Source of the DNA: a virus
Length of the DNA stretch: 64,000 nt
IMG/VR virus record: IMGVR_UViG_3300035180_002599
Coordinates: 29,310-93,309 of that record
Strand: one strand, 5' to 3'
Each line of letters opens with the position of its first letter. Position 1 is the first letter of the stretch. The notes under the pieces were generated by a model, which was not told the DNA's origin, searched no databases, and worked only from the letters and a program-made list of their open reading frames with translations. Positions 1-64,000 of this stretch are shown piece by piece. The position numbers and the translations under genes were made by a program.

Positions 1-1490
1 TCAATGACGGTTATATCCGAGGTTTGGGTGCTGATATTGATAACGGTCGTATGGAACATACTGGAATACTTCCAATATTAAAAGCTCAAGAATCTGCAAC
101 CAAAGCATTCACTCAGGAGAGTAGAGGAGGTTCATCTACTAATTATTATCCTTTCTTTCATTATGAAGCTGAATTGATTATGCAATTGGGTAATGCTAAA
201 GGAACTGCAGACACTCGTGTTAGACATGCAGACCATACTATTGTATTCAATAAATTGTTTTTTGAGCGAATTGCAAATGGGCAAGATATTACATTATTTC
301 ACATAAATTCAGCTCCAAAATTGTATGACAATATTGGTTATAATGAAACATTTAAAGAGCTTTATGAACATTATGAAAGAACGGTTCCAGCAAAACATAA
401 AAAAACAATAAAAGCTTCTGCTTATAAAGACTTGTTTCATAATGAAAGATTTTTACAAGGTAGATTGTATTATATGTTTGCTGATAATGCAAACCAACAT
501 GGTATGTGGAAGATTCATGTAAATCAATCTAATCTTTGTTTAGAAATTATTGTTCCAGCTACACCTTTAGATTCAGAAACTCCAGAGGTTGGTGTTTGTA
601 TTTTAGCTGGATTACAACATGGATATTTAACAGATGAACGAGTTCCTGTAGCTTCAGAATTTTTAGTAAGATTCTTAGAAGAAATGATTGATTATATGGA
701 TTATACACATCCAGAGATTGAATACGCTGCAAAAAAACGTAGAACTTTAGGGATAGGACATTCAGATATTTTTCATTATTTAGCAAAAAACAAAATGTTT
801 TATAATACATTAGAAGGTCGAAATCTAATGCACAAACGTTATGAATTAGCTACATATTGGATGACCCGAACTAGTGTGGAAATAGCTAAAGAAAAAGGTC
901 CTTGTGAGTTATATAAAGACACCAAATATTCTGATGGTATGGTTACATTAGATGTGTATAAACGAACCGTAGATGAATTAGTAACAGAGCCTTTACATTG
1001 TGATTGGGATGGATTACGGGCAGATTTGAAAAAGTTTGGTATTAGACATAGCACATTGACTTCAAACCCACCTTTCGGTAATTCAGCTAAAACCGGAAAT
1101 GCAACATCAGGTGCAGAACCTCCTAGATTTTTGGCTACAGTTAAAGATGATAAAAAAGTTAAATTGACTCAATTGGTTCCTGAATATAATAAGCTCAAAA
1201 ATTATTATACTACGGCATGGGGAGAAGATTTCAATAATATTGATTACTTTAAGTTCATTGCAGTTCTTCAAAAATTCATAGATCAAAGTGTTAGCACTAA
1301 TCAATATACAAACCTATTGAGATATGAAGGTGGAAAAGTTCCAATGAGTGTATTGGAAGAAGAGTTTATCACTGCATATTATTATGGATTAAAAACCATG
1401 TATTATCAAAATTTTAGAAGCGATGATGGAGTTGATGGTATAGATGATGAAAAAGCAACAGGCTGCGGAAGCGGAGGGTGTGTCGTATAA
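1..1490 (+). CDS. nrdA: Ribonucleotide reductase class Ia, large subunit (5' truncated)
   Basis: This is the C-terminal part of the aerobic ribonucleoside-diphosphate reductase alpha chain, which makes deoxynucleotides for phage DNA synthesis. The frame is open to the left window edge (codons in phase with base 3), so the TTG at 24 is internal and not the real start. The motif SNLCLEI holds the thiyl-radical cysteine (codon 537-539) with the flanking Asn and Glu of the active site. The C-terminus CGSGGCVV matches the CxSGxC redox pair that exchanges electrons with thioredoxin or glutaredoxin (E. coli ends CESGACKI). The small subunit is not in this window. Confidence 0.93.
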   Translation, partial: NDGYIRGLGADIDNGRMEHTGILPILKAQESATKAFTQESRGGSSTNYYPFFHYEAELIMQLGNAKGTADTRVRHADHTIVFNKLFFERIANGQDITLFHINSAPKLYDNIGYNETFKELYEHYERTVPAKHKKTIKASAYKDLFHNERFLQGRLYYMFADNANQHGMWKIHVNQSNLCLEIIVPATPLDSETPEVGVCILAGLQHGYLTDERVPVASEFLVRFLEEMIDYMDYTHPEIEYAAKKRRTLGIGHSDIFHYLAKNKMFYNTLEGRNLMHKRYELATYWMTRTSVEIAKEKGPCELYKDTKYSDGMVTLDVYKRTVDELVTEPLHCDWDGLRADLKKFGIRHSTLTSNPPFGNSAKTGNATSGAEPPRFLATVKDDKKVKLTQLVPEYNKLKNYYTTAWGEDFNNIDYFKFIAVLQKFIDQSVSTNQYTNLLRYEGGKVPMSVLEEEFITAYYYGLKTMYYQNFRSDDGVDGIDDEKATGCGSGGCVV

Positions 1491-1506
1491 GGAAACCATA
1501 TTGGAA

Positions 1507-2010
1507 ATGAACAAGGAGAATTGGGATATCCTCCTTGAACGTATTCAATATTTAAAAAATGAAGTTAGAAAGTACAAATATGATTTTCTAACTGGTCTAA
1601 AAATGAGAAAAGATTTTGATGGATATTTGAGAATTTTGTTTGAAATGTGTGATTTTGAAAATAGAGATTTCACAATAATTCTTATAGATATTGATGGATT
1701 ACATGATTTGAATAGAAATTCAGGTTACTCTAAAGGTGATGAACTTATTAAAACTGTTGCTGATTCATTAATTGTTTTCAAAGAATGTAATGGAACTGAG
1801 ATTTTTAGGATAGGTGGTGATGAATTTGGAATTCTAGTAAAAGGTCATGATGAATCCAAATTAGAGCAAGCCTTAAATAAATTAGAAAAATGTACTTGGG
1901 CATATACTCATGTAACTCCTGATAAAGATTTTGGGTCTCCAGCTCATGTATTTAAAATTACAGACGATAAAATAATTGCTAAGAAACTTGACAAAAACAC
2001 ATCTAGGTGA
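1507..2010 (+). CDS. GGDEF-domain protein, possible diguanylate cyclase
   Basis: The protein has a short N-terminal helix, then DFLTGL, the metal-binding IDIDGLHDLN stretch and a perfect RIGGDEFG active-site motif (codons 1813-1827), as in enzymes that make cyclic di-GMP from GTP. The C-terminal GIA...AD..LY.AK part of the usual 170-residue domain is not recognisable, so the domain is minimal and may be inactive or only bind ligand. An alternative ATG at 1444 would overlap nrdA by 47 bases; ATG 1507 or TTG 1501, downstream of AGGA at 1490-1493, avoids that overlap. No sensor domain or membrane segment is present. The gene directly follows nrdA and is probably co-transcribed with it. Confidence 0.75.
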   Translation: MNKENWDILLERIQYLKNEVRKYKYDFLTGLKMRKDFDGYLRILFEMCDFENRDFTIILIDIDGLHDLNRNSGYSKGDELIKTVADSLIVFKECNGTEIFRIGGDEFGILVKGHDESKLEQALNKLEKCTWAYTHVTPDKDFGSPAHVFKITDDKIIAKKLDKNTSR

Positions 2011-22147: not shown

Positions 22148-22747
22148 ATGATAATAAGAAAATTATTTAAATTTGAAGGTGCTCATATTGTTAGAAATTG
22201 TTCATCTGATAGATGTAAGAGATCTTTACATGGTCATAGCTATGTAGTAGAATGTTTTTTCTCTTCTAAAGGATTAGATCAAGGACAAATGGTCATGGAT
22301 TTTGGTTTAATGAAAGGTACTGTAAAAGATCTAATTGATTCATTTGACCACGCTTATAGTATGTGGAATAAAGAATCTGAGGATTTTAAAAATTTCATTT
22401 ATGAAAATTCAGCTAGATGGATTTCAATGCCAGTTTCTCCTAGTGCAGAAGCTTATTCTTTAATGTTATTTTATATCATTGATAAAATTGTAAAAGCTAC
22501 AGAATTCAATAACGGTGAAAAAGAAGTAGAGCTGGTTTCGGTTAGAGTACATGAGACAACCACTGGATATGCAGAATCGTTTAGAGCTGATTTAGAATAT
22601 TTCCCATTTAATTTGATGGATATAACATTTAGTGAGCAAATAAAATCAGAATGGCACGATCCGGAAATGTATGATAAATTGATTCAATATAATCAACGAC
22701 CTATGAAAAAACCGTTTGTCAACCCTATAGTTGTTCAGCAAGTTTAA
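22148..22747 (+). CDS. queD: 6-carboxy-tetrahydropterin synthase QueD
   Basis: Makes 6-carboxytetrahydropterin, the second step towards preQ0. The N-terminal FKFEGAHIV, the zinc motif LHGHSYVVE, catalytic region MVMDFGLMKGTVKDLID, FDHAYS and C-terminal VRVHETTTGYAES are all present. It is longer (199 residues) than bacterial QueD (about 120), with an insert at residues 85-125 and a C-terminal extension. It is separated by 38 kb from queC/queE/dpdA but belongs to the same pathway. Confidence 0.9.
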   Translation: MIIRKLFKFEGAHIVRNCSSDRCKRSLHGHSYVVECFFSSKGLDQGQMVMDFGLMKGTVKDLIDSFDHAYSMWNKESEDFKNFIYENSARWISMPVSPSAEAYSLMLFYIIDKIVKATEFNNGEKEVELVSVRVHETTTGYAESFRADLEYFPFNLMDITFSEQIKSEWHDPEMYDKLIQYNQRPMKKPFVNPIVVQQV

Positions 22748-58823: not shown

Positions 58824-60047
58824 TTGTTAGTTTTAAATACAAATTCTTTTTCTTCTCAATTATCTCAGATAGCATCTGAGAGTATTTTATATCAAATCAA
58901 ATCACTAAATCTTAATTCTAAAAATACCGCATCTTTAGTTAATTCAGTTTCATTTAGTGTACGGAAAACCTTTTTAGATAAATTACTTCTCAATTCTAGA
59001 AAAATAGATTTTTCAGCTGATGTTGTAAAACATGCAGACTTTGAGCTTAGAAATAATATATTTTTATTCTATAAGAGAGTTCATTTAATAGACTCAAACA
59101 ATATCCTTCCAGGAACTAACAAAAAATTTACTAAATCCAAATCTGGAACATATATTGAGTTTAGGTTCGCTGGGGAATCAAATGATTCTGGGAATTGGTA
59201 TATTCATGAACTAGATGTAGAAAATTTCATCTCGCTTAATTATACCAAACAACAATTAACGGATTCAATAAAAGATGGATCTTTTAAACATTTAAAAATA
59301 GACATTCTGTTTGACTATACAAATAATACTGGACCTTTAAGAAATGTGAATGATTCTTATGTAAAATATAAGAAAAAAACTGGAACTTATAACATAGCTA
59401 GGTCACCTAATTGGTATGATAAAAAACTAGTTTATCAAAATGTAATGAGTGATGAGCTAAAAGAGTTACTAGAAAATGTTTCTTCATTTTGGACTAAGTA
59501 TAGATTACATTCTGTTAAAACCGAAAATATGAGAGATTTTAAATTCTTAATGTACGGTAACGAATTTACCCCTATCATAGATATGGTAACAAAAATGCCT
59601 ATAAATGTAGTTCCTGAGTTATTTTTTAACTCAGTAGTAGAAACGTTAATTAATTCTGAGGAATCTTCTTTTTACATCCATCATATTAAAGTTTTTGACA
59701 ATGCTAGCGTTCATAAAGAAGATGTTGAACCTAGTTCTTATTTAAGAAGTCAGTTGATAAAGAATAGTAAATCCATTCTTTTGGAATTGTTGAAATGTGT
59801 AGTTCTTTCAGATGATACTCATAAAAAAATACATAGGCTAAATTATTCTGATGGTATGTTGTATATGGATAAAAACAATAAACCATATGCTTTACCTTGG
59901 GGAATAAGCAATAAGAAAAATTTCAATGCTTTAAAGAAAAGATTTAAAGTTTTGAAAGACGTGGATTATGAAAGTCTTTATAATGAGTTATTTTTTACTA
60001 TTGATGAGATGATTGAAATAAAAGAAAAACTTAAACTTGATATTTAG
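58824..60047 (+). CDS. Hypothetical protein, 407 aa
   Basis: Starts at TTG 58824 after AAAGGACC. Soluble, Ser- and Asn-rich protein with VRKTFLDKLLLNSRKIDFSAD and a C-terminal part with HKKIHRLNYSDGMLYMDK. No domain recognised. Nine bases after the ATPase, so the two may act together. Confidence 0.6.
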   Translation: MLVLNTNSFSSQLSQIASESILYQIKSLNLNSKNTASLVNSVSFSVRKTFLDKLLLNSRKIDFSADVVKHADFELRNNIFLFYKRVHLIDSNNILPGTNKKFTKSKSGTYIEFRFAGESNDSGNWYIHELDVENFISLNYTKQQLTDSIKDGSFKHLKIDILFDYTNNTGPLRNVNDSYVKYKKKTGTYNIARSPNWYDKKLVYQNVMSDELKELLENVSSFWTKYRLHSVKTENMRDFKFLMYGNEFTPIIDMVTKMPINVVPELFFNSVVETLINSEESSFYIHHIKVFDNASVHKEDVEPSSYLRSQLIKNSKSILLELLKCVVLSDDTHKKIHRLNYSDGMLYMDKNNKPYALPWGISNKKNFNALKKRFKVLKDVDYESLYNELFFTIDEMIEIKEKLKLDI

Positions 60048-60127: not shown

Positions 60128-60766
60128 ATGGCTAAAACAGTAAGACGTAAATTTTGGGGCATTGATTGTATTATCAGACATGACTACGAGGATTTAGAAA
60201 TTTCTAAAAAATTGCAAGATTATCAAACTAAAAGTGTCAATACTTTTAAACATTTTTTAACAAACGTACCTGATTTTCCTAATTTTAGATCATTATTAGA
60301 TATTGGTTGTGGTGATGATTTTTGTATTAATCAATTTCGAGATACTTTTGAAGAAGTTAAAGGTATTGATTTGTATGTAAACCCAGGAGAATATCAAGAT
60401 GTAGTTGTGTCCGATTGGTACACAATGGCTGAAGATGTATTCAAAGATAAGAAATTTGATGCAGTGTTTATGAATCACTCTATGGAACATGCAGAAAACA
60501 TTTATGCATTGATGCAACAAACATCCGCATTACAAAATAAAGGCGGAGCTATTTTCGTAGCAGTTCCAGACGGTGTAGACCCATTCGGTTTCGCAATCAC
60601 AAGCTCAACTACACATTTTTCTGTAGTAACAGAAGGGTTTTTACGAACTACACTACAACGTTTTGGATATAATGTAGAAGTTGTTAAAAAAGAATTGCGC
60701 CCAGGAGCACCTGAATTGTGGGCTTACGGAATCAAGCAGTATGATTCTTTTAGTTTGGAGAAATAA
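60128..60766 (+). CDS. SAM-dependent methyltransferase
   Basis: 212 residues with a class I methyltransferase core: LLDIGCGDD as SAM-binding motif near residue 58, VKGIDLYVN, FDAVFMNHSMEHAEN and GGAIFVAVPDG. The MNHSMEH motif is typical of type 11 methyltransferases acting on small molecules or modified bases. Its ATG-overlapped position before queC (stop TAATG) links it to 7-deazaguanine synthesis; it may methylate a deazaguanine derivative or its carboxyl group. Substrate is inference. Confidence 0.75.
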   Translation: MAKTVRRKFWGIDCIIRHDYEDLEISKKLQDYQTKSVNTFKHFLTNVPDFPNFRSLLDIGCGDDFCINQFRDTFEEVKGIDLYVNPGEYQDVVVSDWYTMAEDVFKDKKFDAVFMNHSMEHAENIYALMQQTSALQNKGGAIFVAVPDGVDPFGFAITSSTTHFSVVTEGFLRTTLQRFGYNVEVVKKELRPGAPELWAYGIKQYDSFSLEK

Positions 60767-61515
60767 TGACTGATTTAACCATTATGTATTCAGGTGGTTT
60801 GGATTCGTTTATTGCTTGGCATTACGCTAAAAAAATTGGGTTTAATCCCCAAGCAATTTATGTTAATTTAGGTCACCCATATGCTCACAAAGAATTAGAT
60901 TCCATGAACCGTTTATCTGAAAAATTTGGAATTTCTATTGATTATTTGGATATGACTACATTATACAATCTCATTCAAAACAAATTAAACAATCAAATTA
61001 TTCCTAGCCGCAATGTAATGTTAGCTACGATTGGAGCTATGTTTAACCCAATCGTTTGGATTAATGCTTTAGATGGTGAACAAAATGGTAAAGAACATGA
61101 TAAAAGTTATAGATTCTTTGCAGATACTACTGAATTGTTGAGTTTTACTAATGAGTTCTTTCAAGAAAGAACTACAATAACTTCACCGTTTGCTCATATG
61201 TCAAAGGCAGAGACAATTAAATGGGCTTTAGCCAATGGATTATCTAAAGAAGATTTATTTGAAACGACATCTTGTTATGATGGTGAAGAAACTAAATGTG
61301 GAAAATGCTTGACTTGTTATAAACGAAAAGTTGCATTTTTGCTAAATGGCGTAGATGAACCTGGATATAAACAAGATCCGTTGAATTCTTCATATGCTAA
61401 AGAAGTAGATGCCGAAATAACTAAAGCTATTGAAAATAATGATTATACAAGATTCACAAGAAAACGTATAAAAGAACATCAGGAATTGAAAGATATTCTT
61501 AATAAAAGGGGTTAA
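60766..61515 (+). CDS. queC: 7-cyano-7-deazaguanine synthase QueC
   Basis: Converts 7-carboxy-7-deazaguanine to preQ0 with ATP and ammonia. PP-loop YSGGLDSF is at residues 8-15, SRNVML follows near 85, and the zinc site CYDGEETKCGKCLTCYKR is near 171. Normal family length (249). No glutamine amidotransferase domain is fused, unlike the Gat-QueC of some phages. Confidence 0.92.
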   Translation: MTDLTIMYSGGLDSFIAWHYAKKIGFNPQAIYVNLGHPYAHKELDSMNRLSEKFGISIDYLDMTTLYNLIQNKLNNQIIPSRNVMLATIGAMFNPIVWINALDGEQNGKEHDKSYRFFADTTELLSFTNEFFQERTTITSPFAHMSKAETIKWALANGLSKEDLFETTSCYDGEETKCGKCLTCYKRKVAFLLNGVDEPGYKQDPLNSSYAKEVDAEITKAIENNDYTRFTRKRIKEHQELKDILNKRG

Positions 61516-62280
61516 ATGTTACCATTAGTAGAAACGTTCTACAGTATTCAAGGAGAAGGTCGAAGAGCCGGTTACAATTCATTATTCATAAGATTTGGTG
61601 GATGTAATTTTAGATGCCCTGGATTTGGTGTTAAATACACTACTCCAGATGGAGTAGAAAAATTTGGTTGTGACACTTGGATGGGAGTAGACCCTGCATT
61701 CAAAAAACAATGGGATAATAAAGATTCATATAAAGAGATTATATCTCAAGCAAATGATAGTATTCCTTCATCATCTAAATATCACAAATATGATGTCGTA
61801 ATTACTGGTGGTGAACCTACAATGTTTTGGAAGAATCAAGAATTTCAAAATTTATTAATCCATTACATTTCTAGAGGACATAAAGTAACCATTGAAACTA
61901 ATGCCTCATTAGATATTGAATTCACTAAAGATTATCAATCTGAAATTATGTTTAGTATGAGCGTAAAATTATCAAATTCTGGAGAGCCAGAAAGTAAAAG
62001 AATCAATATTGACAATATTTCCAATATTGCAGAAAACACAAAAGATAGCTATTTCAAATTTGTTATCAATGCTGAAACTAAAAACCAAGACATGAAAGAA
62101 ATCATGAATATTTTGGAAAGTGTTCCTAATTATTTAGATGTATTTTTGATGCCATTGGGTGATACAATGATTGAAGTTCATAAAAACAGAGGGGTTACCG
62201 CCGAATTGTGTGTAGCCAATGGATTTATGTATTCAGATCGTATGCATATAGCCATCTGGGATAATAAAAAAGGTGTTTAA
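61516..62280 (+). CDS. queE: 7-carboxy-7-deazaguanine synthase QueE
   Basis: Radical SAM enzyme that contracts the pterin ring. SIQGEGRRAGYNSLFIRFGGCNFRC is the start of the cluster loop; the third cysteine (CDTW) lies 17 residues after the second, so the motif is CX3CX17C instead of CX3CX2C. The CPGFG insert is a known QueE variant type. VITGGEPTMF binds SAM and VTIETNAS follows. The ATG is one base after queC stop. Confidence 0.9.
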   Translation: MLPLVETFYSIQGEGRRAGYNSLFIRFGGCNFRCPGFGVKYTTPDGVEKFGCDTWMGVDPAFKKQWDNKDSYKEIISQANDSIPSSSKYHKYDVVITGGEPTMFWKNQEFQNLLIHYISRGHKVTIETNASLDIEFTKDYQSEIMFSMSVKLSNSGEPESKRINIDNISNIAENTKDSYFKFVINAETKNQDMKEIMNILESVPNYLDVFLMPLGDTMIEVHKNRGVTAELCVANGFMYSDRMHIAIWDNKKGV

Positions 62281-63713
62281 TGGCTAAGAAGAAAAAAGAA
62301 AATCAAATTAAGATAGATTACTGTGCCAGCGGATTCTTAGGATATTCTGGTGCTGAAGCTATCATCCGTTACGCTTTAGAGAACGGAAAAGATGAGTACA
62401 TTGATTATATTGTAGCAGTAATGCATTATTTAAGAGACCAATTCAACAAAGTTGGCATTCATATGTCAGTCATGTTTAACGCACAATACGAACAAAAGAA
62501 CGCTTATATGATTGATATTCTAAGACAACATGGGTTTGATATGGAAGTTCATGCAGACTCTGGTGGATTACAAGTTATGACTCGTGGTTTGGATTTAGAA
62601 AAAGAAAAACCTGGTATTTTTGAATGTCAAGGAAAATATGCAGACTTAGCAATGTCATTTGATGAAATGCCAAATATAAAAGTAAATGAAGAAAAAAACA
62701 AATCTTTCCATTTTGGTCCTAAAAAAATTGAGAATATGTACTTTGTAAAAGAATTGGCGTTTATTAAAGGTGAGAAATCATCTAAAAATATTGTAGATCA
62801 AATTGAAGAGTTTATCAAACAAGGAACCAAAGCTCGTATCATTGTAATTTTACAAGGTCACACCATTGAAGATTATAATAATTATGCTCGTGGAGTGTAT
62901 TCATTAATACCTGAGAAATATTATAAGTATATCCATGGAATTTCATTAGGGGGAACTGGGTTTCAATCATTCGATGATTTGGTCGATGTATATCTTAGAA
63001 TACAAAGAGATTTAACTGCAGTTCCTAAAGATCATTTGAAACAAATTCATATTTTGGGTACAGGTACATTGGAAAGAATTTTTCCATTCTTGATTCTAGC
63101 AAATAAAGATTATTACGATTTTCCATTTACTTTTAGTTTTGATGCTACAACGCATGCTTCAGCAAGTACATGGGGAAAATGGTCAGAGTTAAAAGATAAC
63201 GGTGGGATAACTGTACACACTGTGGGTGGATACAAAATGAATAAACTTATTTTGAAACACACCACTCATATGTATGAAGAGTTAGCAGAATATTTGAAAA
63301 TTGTAGGAATTAATTCTTATGATGAAATGTTAGAACAAATGACTCCATATAATTCAACAGGAAAACGATTATCTGCAGATTTTGGAGCAGATAAAGAAGG
63401 TTACTTGAAAGTAGCTAATTTTTATTCATTTAACACATTTATTTTAGAATCTAGCACTTATTTGAAATTAATGGATAAAATAGTTAACGGTAATTTATAT
63501 GATGCTTCAACAAAAAACAAATATAGAAAAATTGCAGGCTCATTGATTAGTGAATTGAAATCTTATGAAGATTACATCTCTAAAGAAAAAGAAATTAGAA
63601 AAGTTTTAAAACATTTGAGACCTAGAAAAATCAATTATGTTAATACTTTAAAAGAAATTGAACATTTGATGACCGGAGAAATTCCGAAACATGAATGGGA
63701 TGAATGGGAGTAA
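62280..63713 (+). CDS. dpdA: DpdA-like DNA-guanine transglycosylase
   Basis: 477 residues related to tRNA-guanine transglycosylase: EVHADSGGLQVMTRG (nucleophile-region DSGGxQ) near residue 92, MSFDEMP, VILQGHTIEDY, HGISLGGTGFQSFDD and FSFDATTHAS as further active-site landmarks. Phage DpdA exchanges guanine in DNA for preQ0 or relatives. It overlaps queE by one base. No separate PUA domain is seen, which favours DNA over tRNA as the substrate. Confidence 0.87.
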   Translation: MAKKKKENQIKIDYCASGFLGYSGAEAIIRYALENGKDEYIDYIVAVMHYLRDQFNKVGIHMSVMFNAQYEQKNAYMIDILRQHGFDMEVHADSGGLQVMTRGLDLEKEKPGIFECQGKYADLAMSFDEMPNIKVNEEKNKSFHFGPKKIENMYFVKELAFIKGEKSSKNIVDQIEEFIKQGTKARIIVILQGHTIEDYNNYARGVYSLIPEKYYKYIHGISLGGTGFQSFDDLVDVYLRIQRDLTAVPKDHLKQIHILGTGTLERIFPFLILANKDYYDFPFTFSFDATTHASASTWGKWSELKDNGGITVHTVGGYKMNKLILKHTTHMYEELAEYLKIVGINSYDEMLEQMTPYNSTGKRLSADFGADKEGYLKVANFYSFNTFILESSTYLKLMDKIVNGNLYDASTKNKYRKIAGSLISELKSYEDYISKEKEIRKVLKHLRPRKINYVNTLKEIEHLMTGEIPKHEWDEWE

Positions 63714-63714
63714 A

Positions 63715-64000
63715 ATGAATAAAAAAGTAATAGAATTTATCAAACCTAGATATGTTATGAAATATAACGAAGAATCTTTTGCGGAAGCTTTAGCAGAATA
63801 CATGGATTTGCGTCCATTCAAAGCAAATGAAAATGTATGGGAAACAAATCAAAATGTTCCAGATGATGTTCATTTAATTGCTAGATTGGTAACTCAATAT
63901 CATCTAACCGAAGCATTTAAAGCTATGAAAATTGACATGTCTGATGATAATGTAATGGAAGATTTATCATCTGGAAATATTGGCACTCCTGGACGTATAG
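63715..64000 (+). CDS. folE: GTP cyclohydrolase I, FolE-type (3' truncated)
   Basis: The window ends after 95 codons. The visible part ends with LTEAFKAMKIDMSDDNVMEDLSS then NIGTPGRI, which matches the FolE stretch with D..DDSLMETPHRI before the catalytic core; a ~10-residue insert separates the two. FolE makes dihydroneopterin triphosphate, first step of the pathway. The catalytic Cys and His residues lie beyond the window edge, so confirmation needs the next bases. Confidence 0.65.
   Translation, partial: MNKKVIEFIKPRYVMKYNEESFAEALAEYMDLRPFKANENVWETNQNVPDDVHLIARLVTQYHLTEAFKAMKIDMSDDNVMEDLSSGNIGTPGRI

Follow-up and report, generated by a model that had tools for sequence, protein, structure and literature searches.

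A divergent QueC paired with a methyltransferase in a predicted 7-deazaguanine DNA modification locus of a T4-like phage

We analyzed a 64,000-nucleotide stretch of viral DNA, hereafter the window (bases 29310-93309 of the 93309-bp IMG/VR record IMGVR_UViG_3300035180_002599, the right window edge being the contig end), which carries queC, queE, dpdA and folE in one run. Modification of the phage DNA with a 7-deazaguanine base is very likely. The QueC encoded here belongs to a divergent group, called D-K below, whose gene is recurrently paired with that of a methyltransferase. We tentatively suggest that the two enzymes constitute a new terminal branch of the pathway that yields an undescribed DNA base, for instance 7-carboxy-7-deazaguanine (CDG) as a methylated amide or ester, while the displaced guanine is recycled by a phosphoribosyltransferase dedicated to this task. 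A preliminary description of the window had placed these four pathway genes side by side and queD at 22148, and the positions of the open reading frames (ORFs), family matches and a PTPS match for queD bear this out. It had also assigned the whole of 60128-64000 to the pathway, which holds for all but the first gene (60128-60766), an unmentioned class I methyltransferase. Its description of the route as complete is right as to gene families, folE being completed on another IMG/VR contig, L005, which comes from nearly the same virus and overlaps by 11.7 kb with 2 mismatches, but not as to QueC, which fails at two canonical residues.

The window QueC scores 76.8 bits with PF06508, whose cut-off is 22, and 65 bits with the NCBIfam equivalog TIGR00364, short of its cut-off of 150. 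It was aligned with QueC of E. coli, B. subtilis, nt-1, pf16 and CP220, with the Gat-QueC of NP1 and with Cap9. In E. coli numbering, it retains the SGGxDS motif (as SGGLDS), PSRN, R99, D133, K165, Y189 and the zinc cysteines; Y35 is replaced by Leu, Y131 by Glu and C134 by Lys, and the canonical signature at Y35 (YxQxHxxE) and Y131 (YPDC) is absent. Sixteen other proteins have the same D133-K134 pair, loss of Y35 and a non-aromatic residue at 131. All 17 D-K QueCs lack Y35 and an aromatic residue at 131 and retain D133, R99 and the zinc cysteines, and in a tree they separate from canonical QueC and Gat-QueC with support of 97/95, some branches being long. Libby et al. 2026 (PMC13329287) replaced Y35, R99, Y131 and Y189 of E. 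coli QueC by alanine, and each change knocked out the pathway in cells. Cap9 uses the Asp corresponding to D133 to recognize the Watson-Crick edge of the base, onto which a Tyr is stacked (PMC13279940); since D133 is kept, the D-K pocket may, by analogy, have been remade with base recognition retained.

Two D-K QueC loci have neighborhoods of their own. On the Azospirillum picis chromosome (L117 7986-9183), D-K QueC overlaps a phosphoribosyltransferase gene; no DpdA was found in this genome, and the only tRNA-guanine transglycosylase (TGT) found in it is canonical and lies elsewhere. In L095 (5425-7979), glycosyltransferase-like, HAD-like and short-chain-dehydrogenase-like ORFs, recognized by eye and with no Pfam match, lie between dpdA and queC.

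The methyltransferase matches the Rossmann-type family Methyltransf_23 (PF13489); DpdM, the methyltransferase of 7-aminomethyl-7-deazaguanine in DNA (dPreQ1), reportedly has its own, non-Rossmann fold (Cui et al. 2023). Besides copies of the same virus, the viral contig collection yielded few relatives (L096, L099, L100/L110 and L109/L115 at 51-60% identity and L113 at 35%), and a search of named phages gave no match. Every relative found with at least 35% identity adjoins a D-K QueC gene, either overlapping it or lying within ~820 bp; in L100, a homing-endonuclease-like ORF, recognized by eye, sits between the two. Six viral lineages thus carry the methyltransferase beside D-K QueC with differing DpdAs, namely DpdA2 in the window, L096 and L100 and other TGT-like proteins in L099, L115 and L113. 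Because the pair recurs with different DpdAs, the methyltransferase and D-K QueC travel as a unit. That the methyltransferase is a chance neighbor was considered and dropped, as all these relatives adjoin the rare D-K QueC. A 25% match in L114 has no pathway gene nearby. In two loci whose DpdA has 60% identity (L006 and L007), neither methyltransferase nor QueC was found in the sequence searched, and the queE-dpdA-folE-phosphoribosyltransferase run is intact.

A tblastn search with the window DpdA lands on gene VPFG_00171 of Vibrio phage nt-1 (E=8e-25), whose protein YP_008125322 was named DpdA2 by Hutinet et al. 2019 (PMC6884629). Pfam gave no TGT match for the window protein, and a profile search against PDB sequences returned only chance matches, so a fold comparison was used. 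The top two PDB matches of an AlphaFold2 model (predicted local distance difference test score, pLDDT, 84.7) are 1j2b, an archaeosine TGT (E=7e-7), and 7ui4, a DpdA that acts as a DNA preQ0 insertase (E=2e-5). As the TM-scores are low (0.33-0.38), the modeled fold shows membership of the TGT superfamily and not close kinship. D93 (in DSGG) and D288 (in SFD), which we take by analogy to TGT to be the catalytic aspartates, are invariant in alignments of 8 and of 15 sequences. Homology and the model mark the window protein as homologous to DpdA2 and TGT-like in fold, and it is predicted to exchange guanine in DNA. Elsewhere, four DpdA2-like ORFs share 21 kb of a 224-kb viral contig (L056 5930-20893).

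For the early enzymes, the PTPS domain of QueD and the guanosine triphosphate (GTP) cyclohydrolase I domain of FolE, the latter in the full L005 copy, were both confirmed. QueD matches TIGR03367 at E=3e-17, under the cut-off of that model. The QueE match to phrog_2076 spans 254 residues, with scores below the NCBIfam cut-offs; cysteines C30, C34 and C52 are all present, an insert preceding the last one. Among named phages the closest QueE is that of CP220-type Campylobacter phages, with 48% identity to the CP220 protein.

A phosphoribosyltransferase gene follows folE in L005. In a survey of 44 non-redundant DpdA2 loci, such a gene was present in 17, many of them without QueC, and it nearly always overlaps or touches folE, queE, queD, queC or a HAD gene. 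A tblastn search for it in named phages gave no match; a more distant phosphoribosyltransferase, annotated in BUCT-ZZ01, resembles xanthine and hypoxanthine-guanine enzymes at scores below their cut-offs. The simplest reading is that the enzyme probably recycles the guanine that DpdA releases, and its recurrence suggests where displaced guanine goes, a question that is rarely asked. At a G+C content of 30%, with ~45,000 guanines per assumed 150-kb genome, an assumed burst of 100 and full replacement, we estimate that several mM guanine would be freed in a 1-fL cell, which is far above the solubility of guanine. In the same survey, a GT4-type glycosyltransferase (ACP17-like, with weak Pfam matches) was seen in 25 of the 44 loci, e.g., L009, L011, L050 and L070. 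QueC is nearby in 0 of these 25 versus 15 of the 19 others (Fisher p=2e-8, uncorrected for kinship), an exclusion that hints at a sugar branch from CDG.

In the mechanism we propose, FolE, QueD and QueE would convert GTP to CDG, and the divergent QueC would activate the CDG carboxylate with adenosine triphosphate (ATP) to give an amide-type product, probably not plain 7-cyano-7-deazaguanine (preQ0). DpdA2 would then exchange guanine in DNA for the QueC-derived base, and the adjacent methyltransferase would methylate the base before or after its insertion. The phosphoribosyltransferase downstream of folE would return released guanine to guanosine monophosphate, and the modified base would shield the phage DNA from host nucleases. 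In phages, 7-deazaguanine bases are known to guard DNA against many nucleases, host restriction enzymes among them. The gene identities, their contiguity, the residue changes in QueC and its conserved pairing are observed, and the last chemical steps, their order, the recycling and the shielding are inferred. Taken whole, with altered base, methylation, guanine recycling and shielding, this scheme is a reasonable possibility that falls short of probable.

The preliminary description had proposed 7-deazaguanine in the phage DNA, and the full gene set, DpdA2 homology, TGT fold and T4-like phage context support that proposal well. It was also correct that QueC has no fused amidotransferase: the protein begins at the QueC domain, and no GATase_6 domain occurs in the contig or in the other sequence examined. 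No true QueF domain was found in the sequence examined either; weak QueF matches in two relatives were rejected, as they coincide by position with the FolE genes, which have a related fold. Separate amidotransferases or glycosyltransferases of the kinds tested were likewise not found elsewhere in that sequence. With neither GATase_6 nor a true QueF, the archaeosine-base product dG+ and dPreQ1 are unlikely, barring genes in missing sequence. The earlier product call was preQ0 or the carboxy stage and not dG+. Its preQ0 part is unsafe because QueC lacks Y35 and Y131, both needed for E. coli QueC to make preQ0. The methyltransferase was left out of account; an amide/carboxy or methylated form fits better. 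With modest confidence, we favor a methylated or otherwise altered amide/carboxy 7-deazaguanine over plain preQ0. That the final base differs from preQ0 in DNA (dPreQ0) is probable; that it is a methylated new base is a more tentative suggestion.

Several points weigh against this reading. The genome is incomplete, and the divergent QueC pocket could make preQ0 after all. The methyltransferase is absent near D-K QueC in five loci (L095, L097, L098, L116 and L117) and so is not obligatory, and its structure model (pLDDT 51.5) is too poor for a structure search and gives no help on its role. The pairing of D-K QueC with a phosphoribosyltransferase in Azospirillum, where DpdA was not found, does not fit guanine recycling, which leaves it unexplained.

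Three other accounts of the locus were weighed. One is an ordinary dPreQ0 phage of the CAjan or Rosebush kind, with QueC yielding preQ0 for insertion by DpdA2 and the methyltransferase being there without a connection; this would agree with the retention of R99, Y189 and D133 in QueC. We consider it unlikely, since Y35 and Y131 are lost and E. coli QueC no longer makes preQ0 with either Y35A or Y131A (PMC13329287), and since the methyltransferase-QueC pair recurs across the six lineages. Loss of the tyrosines could instead halt the second ATP step, so that QueC stops at the amide, 7-amido-7-deazaguanine (ADG), which DpdA2 inserts unmethylated as dADG. This would match the closeness of the window QueE to the enzyme of Campylobacter phages in which dADG replaces 100% of G (PMC8306585), but the CP220 QueC differs in having Y35 and F131 and the methyltransferase is left without a role, and we find this account rather improbable. 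Modification of tRNA, of the queuosine or archaeosine type, in place of DNA would draw on early steps common to queuosine synthesis and on the kinship of DpdA with TGT; however, the transglycosylase is a DpdA2, a family found from the DNA-modified nt-1, and Pfam detects no TGT in it, which makes this reading highly improbable.

Only about eight phage 7-deazaguanine bases had reportedly been described when Cui et al. wrote in 2023. A QueC group without Y35 and Y131 that is tied to a methyltransferase in six lineages is a lead to a further base, and the D-K proteins are a lead to QueC chemistry outside preQ0, Cap9 and QatC.

The features of the locus are collected in Table 1. The ORFs of queC, queE and dpdA abut or overlap, and folE starts within dpdA. 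The window encodes a tail sheath, rIIA, an SbcC/SbcD-type recombination nuclease, NrdA and a sigma factor, and the overlapping contig L005 encodes a DnaB-type replicative helicase and topoisomerase II, indicating a T4-like phage. Adjoining the locus is a 407-amino-acid protein of unassigned family (58824-60047, + strand), whose relatives immediately precede queE in L006 and follow the phosphoribosyltransferase in L095. Farther away, 1444-2010 (+ strand) encodes a GGDEF (diguanylate cyclase-type) domain with an intact RIGGDEF motif (PF00990, E=3e-16) that stops short of the C-terminus of the profile. To the left of the window on the same contig (L002 7881-10648), NadR-like and nicotinamide phosphoribosyltransferase-like genes, recognized by eye, point to salvage of nicotinamide adenine dinucleotide.

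Table 1. Genes of the predicted modification locus in the window and in the overlapping contig L005 (SAM, S-adenosylmethionine; aa, amino acids).
Feature	Position	Strand	Evidence
Class I SAM-dependent methyltransferase, 212 aa	60128..60766	+	PF13489 E=4.5e-14
Divergent QueC (D-K group), 249 aa	60766..61515	+	PF06508 E=2e-21
QueE, radical-SAM 7-carboxy-7-deazaguanine synthase	61516..62280	+	phrog_2076 E=4.5e-60
DpdA2-type DNA guanine transglycosylase (predicted activity), 477 aa	62280..63713	+	phrog_10773 E=7e-48; nt-1 homology
FolE, GTP cyclohydrolase I, N-terminal part (contig end cuts gene)	63691..64000	+	full copy in L005
QueD, 6-carboxytetrahydropterin synthase	22148..22747	+	PTPS PF01242 E=7.9e-22
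Full-length FolE, 263 aa	L005 11412-12203		PF01227 E=2.3e-26
Phosphoribosyltransferase, ~30 bp past folE	L005 12233-12664		PF00156 E=2e-10

Among known systems, Vibrio phage nt-1 resembles the window in being T4-like and in having FolE and QueC beside DpdA2, with a PTPS (QueD-like) gene ~1.5 kb upstream. The nt-1 QueC is canonical at Y35 and Y131, unlike that of the window, its DpdA2 is only 23% identical to the window DpdA, and no relative of the window methyltransferase or the L005 phosphoribosyltransferase was found in the nt-1 stretch examined; nt-1 also carries ArcS (PMC6884629). The Campylobacter phages of the CP220/CPt10 type, in which dADG replaces 100% of G (PMC8306585), share the T4-like character and have the closest QueE, but they differ in the neighbors of QueE, in a QueC on the canonical side of the tree and in giving no DpdA2 match. 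The loci of Escherichia phage 9g (dG+) and Pseudomonas phage NP1 have the same first steps and a DpdA, though this is of another type and their QueC is fused to a glutamine amidotransferase, a domain the window QueC lacks. In the Stenotrophomonas phages Moby and Marzo, a D-K QueC adjoins DpdA2 with FolE and QueE close by; no methyltransferase relative was found in the stretch examined, which has an inositol-1-phosphate synthase homologue instead. In Marzo, this homologue (PF01658, L012 3337-4587) lies within the locus, two genes upstream of the D-K QueC. Cap9 of type IV CBASS (cyclic oligonucleotide-based antiphage signaling system) and QatC are QueC-fold enzymes whose action on CDG or a similar substrate has shifted to a new acceptor; they differ as defense proteins whose target, established or proposed, is a protein, and Cap9 retains the Y-x-D-C residues.
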